Assembly (NCBI RefSeq): GCF_014174215.1
Contig: NZ_JABEQL010000010.1
Location: 1-64,000 of the forward strand
Direction of reading: 5' to 3'
From: Gluconacetobacter tumulicola
GTDB lineage: Bacteria > Pseudomonadota > Alphaproteobacteria > Acetobacterales > Acetobacteraceae
DNA: 64,000 nucleotides
Shown: one piece after another, positions 36 to 43,849 of the stretch
Numbering within the stretch: position 1 is the stretch's first letter
How the letters are laid out: every line of letters begins with the position of its first letter
Made by a program: the position numbers and the translations under genes
Notes under the pieces: model-generated
Database searches by the model: none
What the model was told of the DNA's origin: nothing
Seen by the model: the letters and a program-made list of their open reading frames with translations, nothing else

Positions 36-108
36 GGGCGGCTCCTGGGTTCAGTGTGATGACCCCCTGAACCTTGGCACATGATGCCGTGGGGGCCGTC
101 CACCCCAA

Positions 109-259
109 CACGGCCGTCAAGGCCGCTCCGCTTCGGTGCTCGGAAACACACGACGGGCGTACCGCTGCGCGGCACTCTCGCTCACCAGCCCACATTTTCA
201 CGAAGGCTCTTCGGGGCTCACTGGGCATGCATACTGGCGGCGATTCCGTGTGTGTTTCC
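109..259 (+). repeat. Structured dispersed repeat, copy 1 (degenerate, rearranged)
   Basis: Positions 109-193 match the loop half of the repeat at 16333-16409 closely (shared blocks such as AAGGCCGCTCCG, CGCTGCGCGGCA and CGCTCACCAGCCCAC). The conserved core, which precedes this half in other copies, appears after it here, at about 233-259 and with several changes. GGAAACACAC (142-151) is complementary to GTGTGTTTCC (250-259). No long flanking arms are left. The 36-364 gap holds only this repeat plus a weak GC hairpin near 311-330; I see no gene in it. Confidence 0.7.
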
Positions 260-2396: not shown

Positions 2397-2535
2397 GGGA
2401 GAGGCTGCTTTAAAAGTGCTGATGCTGAGCAAGAGCGACCCTTGAGGGTCGCGGCCGGCGTGTGTTTTTGAGCATCGGAGCGCAGAAAACGCGCGTCGGA
2501 TTGCCGGCAGCGGCGCTTTTAAAGCAGCCTCTCTC
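2397..2535 (-). repeat. Structured dispersed repeat, copy 2 (3' end of yqgE)
   Basis: The outer arms 2397-2417 and 2515-2535 are complementary at 19 of 21 positions (arm contains CTGCTTTAAAAG). The conserved core is at 2489-2512 and reads CGCTGCCGGCAATCC... on the minus strand. An inner hairpin GCGACCC/GGGTCGC (2435-2441 with 2446-2452) has a TTGA loop. The yqgE stop codon is inside the arm. The CGGCCATCAAGGCCG segment found in copies 3 and 4 is missing here. Copy 2 matches copy 4 almost exactly over the core and differs completely in its arms. Confidence 0.85.
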
Positions 2536-3118
2536 AGGCTCGGCTGGTTTGGTGGGTTAGGTGCATCGGATCCATGTTGATGGTCGCCAGGGCCTGGCGC
2601 CATTTGGCGCCGTGGTCCAGCCCGAAGAGGATTTCGTCGCTGGGCGGGGCTGGTAGCCAGGCATTGTGGCGGATGATCTCGTCTTCCAGCTGATCGTCGC
2701 ACCAGCTTGCATGGCCCAGGGCCAGCAGGGCGTTGCGGGGGCCGGCGCCGTCGGCGATTTCGCGCAGTACATCCAGGCTGGCGGTCAGCGTCGTGCCGTT
2801 ATCGACCGACAGGCTGCTATCGCCGATCCAGTCCGAGGAATGCAGCACGAAGCCACGGCCGCCATCCACCGGGCCGCCGGCGCACAGCGCGATCCGACGG
2901 CGCGGCGGCACCGGATCGATGCCGAGCCGTTCCAGCACGTCATCCAGGCCTGGTTGCGACAATCGGCGATTGACGATCAGCCCCATCGCGCCTTCTCCGG
3001 GCACATGGGCGCACAGATAGATCACGGTGCGGGCGAAGGGGCTGTCCGCCAGGGCCGGGGAGGCGACAAGCAGGGAACCGGTGAGGGAGTCAGCCGAGGT
3101 CTGGGAGAGAGGAAACAT
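2534..3118 (-). CDS. yqgE: YqgE/AlgH family protein (UPF0301)
   Basis: A protein of about 194 aa with the YqgE/AlgH core: GSLLVASPALADSPFARTVI, then GAMGLIVNRRL, CAGGPVDGGRGFVLH, ALGHASWCDDQLEDEI and a C-terminal FGLDHGAKWRQAL. The family is conserved in proteobacteria. AlgH was named for an effect on alginate, but the biochemical role is not established. The start is uncertain. I use ATG 3118 because AAGGTG lies just upstream; ATG 3130 and 3151-region starts are in frame but lack a Shine-Dalgarno. It is divergent from the SDR gene and ends inside repeat copy 2. Confidence 0.9.
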   Translation of the reverse strand: MFPLSQTSADSLTGSLLVASPALADSPFARTVIYLCAHVPGEGAMGLIVNRRLSQPGLDDVLERLGIDPVPPRRRIALCAGGPVDGGRGFVLHSSDWIGDSSLSVDNGTTLTASLDVLREIADGAGPRNALLALGHASWCDDQLEDEIIRHNAWLPAPPSDEILFGLDHGAKWRQALATINMDPMHLTHQTSRA

Positions 3119-3235
3119 CACCTTGTACATAGAACAAGAACCGCCGGCCATTGCAACCGCAGCATGCCGATTTGCGGCGGCGGGGGGATTGGCGCTTAAA
3201 TATTCGCGACAGAATGGCCATGGGAGCATCCGGCG

Positions 3236-3994
3236 ATGACGAAGATTGTTTTGGTGACGGGGGCAACGGCGGGTTTCGGCAAGGCGATTGCGGAACGGCT
3301 GGTGCATGACGGATATCGGGTGATTGCCAGCGGGCGCCGCCGCGACCGGCTGGAGGCGCTGGCCGGGTCGCTCGGGCCGGCGCTGCTGCCGCTGGTGCTG
3401 GACATGGATGACAGCGCGGCCCTGCGCGCGCTGCCTGCCAGCCTGCCGGACGGATGGCAGGAGGTGGATATCCTGATCAACAATGCCGGCCTGGCGCTGG
3501 GCATGGGCAAGGCGCAGGACAGCGCGGTCGCGGACTGGCGGCAGATGATCGAGACCAATATCGCCGGGCTGGTCGAGATTACGCACGCCCTGCTGCCCGG
3601 CATGGTGGCGCGCGATCGGGGCCATATCGTCTCGATCGGCAGCACCGCCGGCACCTATCCGTATCTGGGCGGCAACGTCTATGGCGGCACCAAGGCGTTC
3701 GTGGCGCAGTTTATGCGCAATCTGCGCTGCGACCTGCTGGGCACCAGGGTACGGGCGACGAACCTGGAGCCGGGCCTGTGCGGGGGCAGCGAATTCAGCA
3801 ATGTGCGCCTGCGTGACGATGCCAAGGCGGCGGCCGTGTATCAGGACACGCACCCGATTCAGCCCGAGGACATCGCCGAGACCGTGGCGTGGGTGCTGGG
3901 ACTGCCGGCGCATGTCAACATCAACCGTATCGAGATGATGCCGACCTGTCAGGCGGCCGGTGGGCTGGCCGTGGCGAGGGGGCTGGAGGTCTGA
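3236..3994 (+). CDS. ydfG: YdfG-type NADP-dependent short-chain dehydrogenase
   Basis: A classical 252-aa SDR. The nucleotide motif is TGATAGFGKAIA, the NNAG motif is ILINNAGLALGMGKA, and the active site is Ser in SIGSTAG with YGGTK (Tyr-x3-Lys). The C-terminal GLPAHVNINRIEMMP is diagnostic of the E. coli YdfG group, NADP-dependent 3-hydroxy acid/serine dehydrogenases (also malonic semialdehyde reductase RutE-like). True substrate here is inferred. It is followed after only 2 nt by ppk2, whose Shine-Dalgarno lies inside this gene. Confidence 0.9.
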   Translation: MTKIVLVTGATAGFGKAIAERLVHDGYRVIASGRRRDRLEALAGSLGPALLPLVLDMDDSAALRALPASLPDGWQEVDILINNAGLALGMGKAQDSAVADWRQMIETNIAGLVEITHALLPGMVARDRGHIVSIGSTAGTYPYLGGNVYGGTKAFVAQFMRNLRCDLLGTRVRATNLEPGLCGGSEFSNVRLRDDAKAAAVYQDTHPIQPEDIAETVAWVLGLPAHVNINRIEMMPTCQAAGGLAVARGLEV

Positions 3995-13106: not shown

Positions 13107-13208
13107 GGTGGGAGACCGGCAACGGACGGGCGCCTTGCCAACCCGGTCAGGTCCGGAAGGAAGCAGCCGCAGTGAGTTTCGCCCGGGTCGTCTGTCCGGT
13201 CTCCCACC
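13107..13208 (+). ncRNA. ffs: Signal recognition particle 4.5S RNA
   Basis: Bacterial small-type SRP RNA of about 102 nt. The ends GGTGGGAGACCGG (13107-13119) and CCGGTCTCCCACC (13196-13208) form a perfect 13-bp closing helix. The diagnostic apical domain reads GGTCAGGTCCGGAAGGAAGC with AGCCGCAGT after it, carrying the GGAA tetraloop and the Ffh-binding asymmetric loop. It sits just upstream of dnaX, a placement often seen in alphaproteobacteria. Ends are estimated from the helix. Confidence 0.97.
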
Positions 13209-15686: not shown

Positions 15687-16283
15687 ATGGGTGGAGCGGA
15701 CATCGAACGGCTGATCGCGCTGTTGGCGCGTCTGCCGGGACTGGGGCCGCGTTCGGCCCGGCGCGCGGCGCTGGCGCTGCTGCGCCAGCCGCAGACGCGC
15801 ATGCTCCCGCTGGCCCAGGCGATGGAGCAGGCGGCGCGCTCGGTGCGGACCTGCTCCAGTTGCGGCAATCTGGATACGCACGACCCCTGCGGCATCTGCG
15901 CCGATCTGGCGCGCGACCGGGCGGTGGTCTGCGTGGTCGAGACGGTGGGCGACCTGTGGGCGCTGGAGCGTGCCTGCGTGCATCGCGGTGTCTATCAGGT
16001 GCTGGGCGGCACGCTGTCGGCGTTGTCGGGCACCGGCCCGGACGATCTGAATCTGGCGCCGCTGTTGGCACGGCTGGAAGAGGGCGGCGTGCGCGAGGTG
16101 ATCCTGGCGCTGGGGGCGACGGTCGAGGGTGCCGCGACCGCGCACTGGCTGCAGGACCGTCTGGCGGCCTATGATGTGCCGGTCAGCCGCGTCGGGCAGG
16201 GCGTGCCGATGGGCGGTGCCCTGGACGTGCTGGATGACGGGACGCTCGCCGCCGCCCTCACCGCCCGAAAAATCTGTTCGTAA
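15687..16283 (+). CDS. recR: Recombination protein RecR
   Basis: Gap-repair partner of RecF/RecO in recombination. The protein is 198 aa with the helix-hairpin-helix ARLPGLGPRSARRAAL, the C4 zinc finger CSSCGNLDTHDPCGIC, the Toprim domain opening VCVVETVGDLWALER, and the conserved ALGATVEGAATA and SRVGQGVPMGG blocks. It is the last gene of the dnaX-ybaB-recR operon. The last codons, KICS and the stop, are encoded within the left arm of repeat copy 3, so the C-terminus seems fitted to that element. Confidence 0.97.
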   Translation: MGGADIERLIALLARLPGLGPRSARRAALALLRQPQTRMLPLAQAMEQAARSVRTCSSCGNLDTHDPCGICADLARDRAVVCVVETVGDLWALERACVHRGVYQVLGGTLSALSGTGPDDLNLAPLLARLEEGGVREVILALGATVEGAATAHWLQDRLAAYDVPVSRVGQGVPMGGALDVLDDGTLAAALTARKICS

Positions 16284-16428
16284 ACGCGCGCTGGTGGCGA
16301 TCCGACGCGCGTCCGCTGTGCTCCGGTGCTCACGGCCATCAAGGCCGCTCCGGTGCTCGCGGACACACGCCGGGCGTGCCGCTGCGCGGCACTTTCGCTC
16401 ACCAGCCCACGTTTCCGAACAGATTTTT
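16268..16428 (+). repeat. Structured dispersed repeat, copy 3 (3' end of recR)
   Basis: This is the best complete copy. Left arm AAAAATCTGTTCGTAAACG (16268-16286) and right arm CGTTTCCGAACAGATTTTT (16410-16428) pair at 18 of 19 positions. The recR stop is in the left arm and the right arm ends in a T-run, so the whole thing could act as an intrinsic terminator with a long loop. The core is at 16289-16312. CGGCCATCAAGGCCG lies in the middle. The inner hairpin is GTGCCG/CGGCAC (16376-16381 with 16387-16392). GCTGGTG near the core can pair with CACCAGC near 16400. Confidence 0.9.
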
Positions 16429-16452
16429 GGAGATTTGGATTAAGGAGGGGGA

Positions 16453-26840: not shown

Positions 26841-27059
26841 ATGGGACGCCTGATGTTTGTGTGTTCTTGCAATATGCTGACCGACCAGGATGTGGAGCGC
26901 GCGGTTGACGGGGGAGCGACCCGCCCGCGCGAGATCTATGCGGCACGCGGGTGCCGGGCGCAGTGCGGCAATTGCGTGCCAGGCGTGCTGTGCCTGCTGC
27001 GCCGCGCGCTTCAGGCCCGCGCCGAAATAGCGCCGTCGGAGGCGTTGCCCGCCGTTTGA
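26841..27059 (+). CDS. bfd: Bacterioferritin-associated ferredoxin-like [2Fe-2S] protein
   Basis: A 72-aa protein with the BFD-like [2Fe-2S] cysteine pattern: CSCN near the N-terminus and CRAQCGNC later, giving C-x-C and C-x2-C pairs around a helix of about 30 residues. Bfd reduces the iron stored in bacterioferritin so that it can be released. No bacterioferritin gene is in this window. The Fur-type box upstream fits iron control. ATG 26841 follows AGGGAGGGG; ATG 26853 is also in frame. Its 3' side holds repeat copy 6. Confidence 0.88.
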   Translation: MGRLMFVCSCNMLTDQDVERAVDGGATRPREIYAARGCRAQCGNCVPGVLCLLRRALQARAEIAPSEALPAV

Positions 27060-27070
27060 GCGCGTTGCCG

Positions 27071-27125
27071 GGCCTGCTGGGAAACGTGCATCGGATCGCC
27101 ACCAGCGCGGATTTCCCCACAGGCC
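27071..27125 (-). repeat. Structured dispersed repeat, copy 6 (minimal form)
   Basis: Only arms and core are present. GGCCTGCTGGGAAA (27071-27084) and TTTCCCCACAGGCC (27112-27125) pair at 12 of 14 positions, and the core at 27084-27107 reads CGCTGGTGGCGATCC... on the minus strand. There is no inner hairpin. Unlike the other intact copies it is not at the 3' end of a gene in its own sense; both flanking genes are on the plus strand. Confidence 0.75.
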
Positions 27126-27172
27126 TCCGAAAAGGGGATGCGGCGGGTTGGCGGGCTTGATACAAGGTCCGC

Positions 27173-34433: not shown

Positions 34434-34446
34434 AGTAAGAGAATGC

Positions 34447-34608
34447 GGAGAGCCGTAAAGGCCCCGCTGCCGAGCGAGAGCGGCCCGGCGCGGGCCGCGT
34501 CCGGCGTGCGTCTTCGAGCATCGGAGCGGAGCGGCCTTGATGGCCGTGAGTAACGAAGCGCAGAAAACGCGCGTCGGATTGCCGGCAGCGGGGCCTTTAC
34601 GGCTCTCC
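34447..34608 (-). repeat. Structured dispersed repeat, copy 4
   Basis: The arms 34447-34472 and 34583-34608 are perfectly complementary over 26 nt (arm contains GAGAGCCGTAAAGGCC). Core at 34567-34590 on the minus strand. Inner hairpin GCGGCCCG/CGGGCCGC (34480-34487 with 34491-34498) is perfect. The central GGAGCGGCCTTGATGGCCGT matches the complement of copy 3. The stop of the minus-strand secreted-protein gene lies inside the arm. It fills the gap between this gene and the convergent EVE gene. Confidence 0.92.
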
Positions 34609-35136
34609 GGCGGCGCCTTCGGCGCCGATGGCCTGGATGCCGCGTCCGGGTTGGCCGCCATAGGTCGAATAGGTGAAGGCCGCGTTATAAGCAGGCTGCA
34701 CCGGGGCGTTGAACTTCACGGGCACGTCGAAGACGCTGAAATGCGATGGCACGTCGCGGGAATCGCGCGGGGTCTGGCGGGCCTCGATCGATGGCAGGCC
34801 GGGGCCGTGGAGGGCGGCGATCTCCGGGCTGAAGGTCTGGGCCGTGACATCCTCGTCCTGCACCACCTGATAGCCGTCGGGCGGCGGCGGGGCCGGGGGA
34901 TTGTCGGGATCGGCGGTCGGGTCGTGGCGGGCGTCGGCCGGCTCGAGCGACGACGAAACGGGCGCATTCAAGGTGCCGGTCGCGGACACCGGCGCGCGGG
35001 TTGCGTGGCGCGGGGCGGCCTGGGCGGCGTGTATCGCCGCCATGCTCCAGCCGGCCACAAGGGCCGCGCCGGCGCAGAAAAGCAGGGTCGGGGGCGTCGT
35101 CCGCATGGTAGCCCCTGGGGCCTTCATCGCATCCAT
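34597..35136 (-). CDS. Secreted Pro/Ala-rich protein, function unknown
   Basis: 179 aa. A signal peptide (TLLFCAGAALVAGWSMAAIH with AQAAP cleavage) is followed by a disordered linker rich in Asp and Pro (DNPPAPPPPDGYQVVQDED) and a conserved-looking end, SHFSVFDVPVKFNAPVQPAY, with YSTYGGQPGRGIQAIG. I do not recognise a domain. ATG 35136 has AAGGAG 6 nt upstream; a longer frame to 35226 is unlikely. Its stop is within the arm of repeat copy 4. The 35137-35368 gap before ecsC has no gene. Confidence 0.7.
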   Translation of the reverse strand: MDAMKAPGATMRTTPPTLLFCAGAALVAGWSMAAIHAAQAAPRHATRAPVSATGTLNAPVSSSLEPADARHDPTADPDNPPAPPPPDGYQVVQDEDVTAQTFSPEIAALHGPGLPSIEARQTPRDSRDVPSHFSVFDVPVKFNAPVQPAYNAAFTYSTYGGQPGRGIQAIGAEGAAGEP

Positions 35137-35368
35137 AAGGGTTCTCCTTGCGTTCGGACTGTATCTGGGCTGTGACCGGTTCGTCCTCTCCCGGCATGGA
35201 CATGGCGGCCCTGCGTCACGAACCATATACGGCGTGACGGTGGATTTGCGAGAGGGGTAATATGCTTGATAAAGCGACGCCCGCCGTTACCGGTGGGGCT
35301 TCATCTACTGGCCGTCGCCTCGTCCATGCGGGCGGGCGGGGGCGCATGATCGGCAGGAGGGTTGGGGA

Positions 35369-43564: not shown

Positions 43565-43569
43565 AGGCC

Positions 43570-43691
43570 GGCCTGGCAGGAAATACGCGCTGGCGGCGAT
43601 CCCGACGTGCGTTTCCGGCCAGGCTTCCCGGGAGCGATGATTATCCGTGTGGCGACGGCCACCGCCGCCGGCGCGTATTTCCGGTCAGGCT
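43570..43691 (+). repeat. Structured dispersed repeat, copy 5
   Basis: The arms 43570-43598 and 43663-43691 are complementary at 25 of 29 positions (shared GGAAATACGCGC). The core starts inside the left arm (43588-43612, GATCCCGACG with one extra C). The inner hairpin is GTGGC-GACG-GCCAC (about 43649-43662). The element begins 5 nt after the stop of the plus-strand SDH-L gene and its right arm contains the stop of the convergent 54-aa gene. Confidence 0.82.
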
Positions 43692-43849
43692 TTGATGGCC
43701 ATCCGTGTGGCCGCGGCCATTGCGGCGAGGAGATAGAAGCCGATCAGCGTGCGGGCCATGCCGGCGTAATGCGGCATCAGCAGCAGCAGGGCGACTGCCG
43801 TGGCGCAGCCTGCCAGGCAGCAGAGGAAGAAGGTCTGGCTGGCCTGCAT
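43685..43849 (-). CDS. Small two-helix membrane protein, function unknown
   Basis: A 54-aa protein starting MQASQTFFLCCLAGCATAVA, continuing with LLLLMPHYAGMARTLIGFYL and ending in LAAMAAATRMAIKA. It has two hydrophobic segments separated by a short PHYAGMAR turn. Its ATG is 5 nt after the stop of the 2-hydroxyacid dehydrogenase, so it is probably translated from the same message. No family is recognised. Confidence 0.6.
   Translation of the reverse strand: MQASQTFFLCCLAGCATAVALLLLMPHYAGMARTLIGFYLLAAMAAATRMAIKA

Follow-up and report, generated by a model that had tools for sequence, protein, structure and literature searches.

How can a dispersed repeat keep a common core while its two flanking arms pair with each other and yet differ from locus to locus? 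This question was raised by the window, i.e., the whole 64-kb stretch of Gluconacetobacter DNA analysed here, in which the first-pass annotation had described five such copies. Two origins had been proposed: the core inserted itself into loops of stem-loops that were already there, or selection keeps a fold while the sequence drifts. The repeat is a dispersed element of several alphaproteobacterial groups, is often located at gene ends and has an RNA-like fold. It is probably a mobile, MITE-like repeat carrying a structured RNA, in which selection for the fold and template switching together keep the outer stem complementary.

Copies in the window and in the source genome

A full copy occupies positions 16268..16428, with the better-folding strand on minus and the core motif on plus (158.6 bits, E 1e-33 with R2, a minus-strand covariance model). 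Its left arm (16268..16296) overlaps the 3' end of recR, identified by Pfam RecR domains, including the stop TAA at 16281-16283; its right arm (16400..16428) was delimited by an inverted-repeat search, and the conserved core motif, as first annotated, spans 16289..16312 (+). The second full copy, with perfect 27-nt arms, lies at 34446..34609 (+, core motif on −), where one arm covers the 3' end and the TAA (34597-34599) of a minus-strand ORF (34597-35226) without a Pfam match. The copy at 2397..2535 (+, core motif on −) lacks the tip of the long hairpin, and one of its arms abuts the TGA (2534-2536) of a minus-strand AlgH-like (DUF179) gene (2534-3913). The covariance models recovered each of these three with E 4e-20 or better, as 16267-16429, 34443-34612 and 2398-2534. 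A degenerate copy at 43566..43695 retained its arms with the core mostly gone (E 4.4e-4 with R1, the model built from 33 Gluconacetobacter copies, and 2.4e-4 with R2), and a sixth, truncated or broken copy was found at 66..212 (−; R2 36.5 bits, E 1.8e-6). The interval 27071..27125 is a possible short deletion form of ~55 nt that was not significant by covariance model: the R1 match at 27010-27129 had E 0.18, no R2 match was found at E ≤ 1, and the interval was absent among the 25 longest inverted repeats listed for the window. Three of the five copies first described score strongly, the one given as 43570-43691 weakly, and 27071-27125 not significantly. Pairing of the arms within a locus was corroborated at four of the five, where the inverted repeats measure 33 nt (85%) for 2393-2539, 29 nt (90%) for 16268-16428, 27 nt (100%) for 34446-34609, and 28 nt (89%) for 43571-43690. 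Judged by eye, 27071-27125 resembles the short forms L009 (in G000) and L254 (in G. aggeris, G005), and this short form of ~57 nt apparently arose by deletion between TTTCC repeats, with the paired arms retained.

The core ATCCGACGCGCGT had 54 exact matches across the source genome (4.29 Mb, 90 contigs) and the reversed pattern had none, which bears out the conserved, repeated core of the first-pass annotation. Three exact matches fall in the window (2489-2501 −, 16300-16312 + and 34567-34579 −); with up to two mismatches, nine were found there vs 7.4 expected, i.e., no excess over chance. At least one of the 54 matches (L003) is apparently ordinary coding sequence outside the repeat. Exact cores were present in all 13 congeners searched (4-59 per genome; reversed control 0-3), and the 26 non-congener genomes of the same search had 0-2 each. 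From the 54 core places, 51 were extracted and 33 were aligned (length 155-185 nt, left arm 28-40 nt); since these copies were gathered through an exact core, older copies were missed. Head-to-tail tandems of two to three copies with a period of 156-198 nt also occur (L225, L227, L214, L220 and L253 in G003; L266 in G005; L015 in G000), and some of these sites hold a single copy in a relative.

Arms of the element and their relation to IS5-type sequences

The full element measures ~165 nt and consists of ~28-nt arms at a near-constant distance around a three-way-junction core. Among the 33 full copies, the arm starts with GAGCCTG exactly in 14, is one or two bases off in 10 and at least three off in 9. 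The earlier statement that the arms have no sequence in common between loci does not hold, because 24 of 33 copies start within two mismatches of GAGCCTG, resembling IS5-type ends, and the arms in the window are divergent members of this family end. An IS of 885 bp was seen in the congener G. diazotrophicus and not in the source genome. It carries a DUF4096 (PF13340) gene, has the ends AGAGCCTGTTTGGAAA / AGAGCCTGTTTGGAAAGTC and shares 13 of 16 bases of its end AGAGCCTGTTTGGAAA with the majority arm AGAGCCTGACCGGAAA; the identity is 16/16 in one of the 33 copies. Identical 3-bp flanks were found at 7 of 33 copies (five TGA, one TTA, one CAG) vs 3.5 expected (P 0.019). For a related 930-bp IS, they were found at 10 of 11 loci, mostly as TNA (15 loci sampled, four dropped since no end pair was found). 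The picture of an IS-derived MITE with fixed ends, which the first-pass annotation had set against its own reading, thus applies by half: the majority of copies carry an IS5-type family end.

The target preference of these IS does not match that of the repeat. In these small samples, a stop codon was the site of none of the 11 copies of the 930-bp IS (five of them without a gene called within 250 nt) and none of the three copies of the 885-bp IS, vs 29 of 41 for the repeat. Mobilisation by IS5 in Acetobacteraceae is plausible, but given that none of the IS5 copies examined lies at a stop, an IS5 transposase does not by itself account for the placement.

Predicted fold, strand and covariation

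RNAalifold applied to the 33 aligned copies gave 58 pairs, 30 of them with double changes, and changes in the outer arms of this alignment were nearly always two-sided. The predicted structure is a three-way junction in which the arms form the outer stem P1 and the other two helices are hairpins, the short P2 and the long P3, the latter with a near-invariant middle. On the RNA strand, P3 (columns 77-123 of the family-level alignment A3, described below) contains two facing copies of GAGCACCGGAGCG and G-A-rich internal loops; within Acetobacteraceae this GAGCACCGGAGCG pair hardly varies, and it can be recognised in other families as well.

The strand opposite to the core motif was predicted to be the more stable in 33/33, 34/36 and 18/18 copies of three genomes, with an average gain of ~19 kcal/mol over these 87 copies. 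An RNA read from the plus strand was rejected as a candidate because that strand folds worse in 85 of the 87. The same folding strand was better in 20/20 copies from six other Acetobacteraceae genomes, which had been found by a plus-strand model. All 17 loci used from other families (17 of 18 hits, the partial L428 being omitted) also folded better on the strand of the model, but this result is biased since they were found with the minus-strand model.

The family-level Acetobacteraceae alignment A3 comprises 34 sequences, i.e., 18 of the 20 loci from the other genomes and 16 from Gluconacetobacter. In A3, 96.2% of 1985 cells were paired and 45 of 60 pairs showed double changes. The covariation score was 0.525, compared with 0.159 for shuffled alignments and 0.062-0.091 for slid partners; none of 500 shuffles, which do not preserve relatedness, reached the observed value. 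The folding strand had 140 G-U vs 14 A-C cells, and 90 vs 14 when two nearly fixed columns were removed, for a structure that was itself predicted on that strand. Within the arms of three close genomes taken by themselves, no significant G-U strand bias was found (7 vs 17, 15 vs 21 and 8 vs 10; P 0.06, 0.41 and 0.81). This pattern of strand and pairing looks RNA-like to us; similar traces would be expected of single-stranded DNA that contains G-T pairs. Searching Rfam 15 with the window returned only SRP RNA, the bacterial small form at 13111-13207 + (61.3 bits), and three copies of the repeat (L331, L028 and L325) gave three chance-level hits at E ≤ 5, far under the gathering score. If the repeat is an RNA, it would represent a widespread alphaproteobacterial family that is absent from Rfam 15.

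Orthologous insertions and matched changes in the arms

Three insertion sites were compared between congeners. With a query from the recR-side flank, the 16268 copy was found to be common to six genomes (the source and five congeners), G007 (G. sacchari) has a deleted relic and six genomes are without it. At the L035 site, the copy is present in six genomes and absent from six, and only a short perfect hairpin, GAAATCCGCCT-TTCG-AGGCGGATTTC, is left in G007 (L339). Eight loci have a copy at the L036 site, G011 contributing a second locus to this number, and the copy is absent from six genomes. Columns with two Watson-Crick types between species numbered 11 at L036, eight at L035 and three at 16268. 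When right arms were dealt among species, own-arm mismatches were 24 vs 49.3 for dealt arms at L036 (fraction 0.0006) and 22 vs 38.2 at L035 (fraction 0.003), with a weak effect at 16268 (23 vs 29.3, P 0.033). Furthermore, orthologs of the same insertion had 14 same-pair changes vs 4.3 expected, and none of 20,000 permutations had as many (28 of 31 close comparisons used, three dropped for indel slips); 12 of the 14 were from Watson-Crick to Watson-Crick, and the single locus L036 supplied eight. The 34447 copy also differs from its G. asukensis ortholog by a matched A-T to G-C change, and G. aggeris is without an element at this site, probably by deletion.

The two origins proposed in the first-pass annotation fared differently. 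Insertion into the loop of pre-existing hairpins finds no support in 18 element-free congener loci at the three sites, in which the outermost 13 nt of the own arm, taken directly or as complement, were matched at 10/13 at best within 2-4 kb, nor in the arm length and the arm-core distance, which hardly vary among copies. On the other hand, selection that keeps the fold while the sequence drifts fits the matched changes between orthologs, the family-level covariation and the strand-specific G-U pairs.

Arms that match each other could also arise without any RNA function. In that case, the repeat would be an inert IS5-derived MITE, and the complementarity of its arms would reflect correction of a DNA quasi-palindrome by template switching. 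Such an origin would account for the IS5-like ends, for some of the TGA/TTA flank duplications, for matched differences in blocks (e.g., L236/L271) and for the mosaic, mismatched arms of G001 at L035 and G011 at L036, which appear to be uncorrected intermediates. We nevertheless regard it as unlikely, since the same strand folds better in 85/87 and 20/20 copies, G-U pairs are almost all on one strand, the middle of P3 is recognisable in other families, and the IS did not show placement at stop codons in one set orientation.

Placement at stop codons

The left arm lies at the stop of the upstream gene in the same direction (−6 to +30) in 29/41, 35/43 and 18/23 copies of three Gluconacetobacter genomes, of which the first is the source genome, while the mirror arrangement, in which an opposing gene has its stop at the right arm, was found in 5, 0 and 2. 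These values cover 107 of 139 copies (arm score ≥10) and use heuristic gene calls from reading frames and GC3; orthologs are shared between the genomes. The 20 copies from the six other Acetobacteraceae genomes gave 16 left-arm stops vs three in mirror position. Among the 17 loci of other families, an ORF stop is located ≤6 nt from the left end in seven and from the right end in two (L417 and L427, both of which also have one at the left). On NCBI-annotated plasmids, 6 of 8 copies start ≤4 nt from the end of a gene in the same direction (nine of 26 records examined, selected by us, one without annotation). The six are from Sphingobium, Shinella, Allorhizobium and Novosphingobium, two of them from related Shinella, and the two that do not fit are both from Phyllobacterium; one of the eight (L441) also meets the end of an opposing gene. 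The abutting stops are of all types (TGA, TAA and TAG), and the folding strand is antisense to the abutting gene. Replication-strand bias was considered as the cause of the orientation; the agreement between element orientation and GC skew was only loose for exact-core copies in the near-complete genomes G004 and G012.

At L035, the stop is at the identical codon in genomes without the element, so the element did not bring the stop there. The two genes at L036 overlap, the start of a lipoprotein gene, presumably PqiC-like from its LAACASPPVRFYTLG motif, coinciding in part with the stop of the other gene, and the element continues in-frame after the ATG as an N-terminal extension in 8/8 orthologs (L347-L354), a possible case of protein extension. 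The preference for gene ends in a single orientation, in several families, raises a question of targeting that the IS5 elements examined leave unanswered.

Two further explanations of this placement were considered. According to the first, the repeat is a 3'-end regulatory element, such as a terminator, an mRNA protector or a barrier to antisense transcription, which is maintained by selection and for which mobility is secondary. The position and orientation at stops in several families, together with the retention of nothing but a perfect short hairpin at L035 in G007, are consistent with such a role. However, at the three best-read loci about half of the congeners have an empty or reduced orthologous site, the L036 copy is inside a reading frame, and by eye most copies have no evident terminator-like U tract at their RNA 3' end (the arm ends at 16268 and L035 are A/T-rich), so that we hold this role to be very doubtful. 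Intrinsic terminators were also considered as the origin of the arms and were judged, by eye, to be unlikely.

The second explanation is RNA-templated (target-primed) integration, in which the end of the coding strand at the stop would prime the copying of the RNA, starting at the RNA 3' end, and snap-back copying would then yield host-derived arms. This route predicts that the junction is precise at the stop and looser at the far side, and its support is one of geometry: the left junction is precise at TGA, TAA or TAG, the right spacers are variable, and the RNA 3' end is located at the stop. Moreover, the 34447 arm contains the end of the host gene, GAG CCG TAA, and the codons are similar in congeners without the full element. 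The same arm can, however, also be interpreted as a family arm that underwent a small matched deletion, and the IS5-like ends and some flank duplications suit DNA transposition, which leaves target priming highly improbable.

Proposed origin and maintenance of the arms

We hypothesize that a mobile, MITE-like repeat with a structured RNA core arrived at these sites and was then remodelled. Because the arms resemble terminal inverted repeats of the IS5 kind, spread of the copies by an IS5-type transposase is conceivable in Acetobacteraceae. After insertion, the arms would drift in sequence, and their pairing would be re-established both by compensatory mutations, with selection acting on the fold, and by template switching at the hairpin, which would copy one arm onto the other in a single step. 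Such drift and re-matching would make the arms private to each locus and yet complementary. The copies retained are mostly found at the stop of an upstream gene in the same direction, where the protein is left intact. The available text of two published studies describes template switching as a process that makes and mends RNA hairpins (PMC8794818) and homogenisation of arms by template switching (PMC8604942).

Compensatory changes in RNA stems are usually ascribed to two separate mutations. Orthologous copies from genomes ~2-10% apart showed matched changes in both arms, some of them in blocks, and a few mosaic arms are possible intermediates; the template-switch model thus becomes testable in bacteria. 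More tentatively, the repeat could belong to a family of mobile structured RNAs, so far undescribed and class-wide in Alphaproteobacteria, that settle precisely at stops, antisense to the preceding gene, with a near-invariant P3 and an outer stem rebuilt at each locus by arm copying. Were this so, it would provide a natural record of multi-base compensatory template switching and an example of a selfish element that seeks stop codons.

Relation to known repeats

Rhizobium intergenic mosaic elements (RIME) are palindromic intergenic repeats of alphaproteobacteria and are, by description rather than by sequence, comparable with the present repeat; neither of the two sets of matched plasmid records (26 and 28) included one from Sinorhizobium meliloti. 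IS5-family IS and MITEs are alike in the GAGCCTG-type ends and some TNA flank duplications and unlike in placement, as the IS copies examined are not at stops. The enterobacterial ERIC/RU repeats are, in the accessible portion of their description, intergenic and MITE-like, sometimes within ORFs, with 127 bp for RU-1 and 168 bp for RU-2 (PMC2759123). They thereby resemble the repeat in size, intergenic and MITE-like character and occasional ORF location; they are set apart, by description, by their different hosts, and stop anchoring is not mentioned in that portion of the text. Rickettsia palindromic elements (RPE), as far as the available text describes them, are palindromic alphaproteobacterial elements of ~150 bp that are in-frame within genes (PMC10969869). 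The repeat is palindromic and of comparable size, and its L036 copy is likewise in-frame in 8/8 orthologs, but, compared by description, it mostly abuts stops whereas RPE lie inside genes. The literature searched gave no name for the repeat; an older name is possible, as subscription papers were mostly outside the coverage.

Distribution

R1, with at most the 47 best scored per genome, matched 15 of 60 Acetobacteraceae genomes, or 14 of 59 genera including Gluconacetobacter. R2, with the best nine scored per genome, matched 14 of 289 alphaproteobacterial genomes, i.e., the source and 13 others in 11 other families, of which the three weakest (E 3e-5 to 6e-4) may be due to chance. The distribution is patchy, since 275 of the 289 genomes, three of them from Acetobacteraceae, had no R2 match. 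A Gluconacetobacter query matched no phage and one Sphingobium plasmid record, and a query with a Sphingobium copy matched 26 plasmid records. Unlike the IS5-family IS, the repeat has a conserved RNA-like core. Its IS5-type arms mostly differ outside Acetobacteraceae: the arms in other families are complementary, locus-specific and mostly not GAGCCTG-like, and on plasmids outside Acetobacteraceae eight of nine copies have arms that are not GAGCCTG-like, the ninth (L438) being weakly so.
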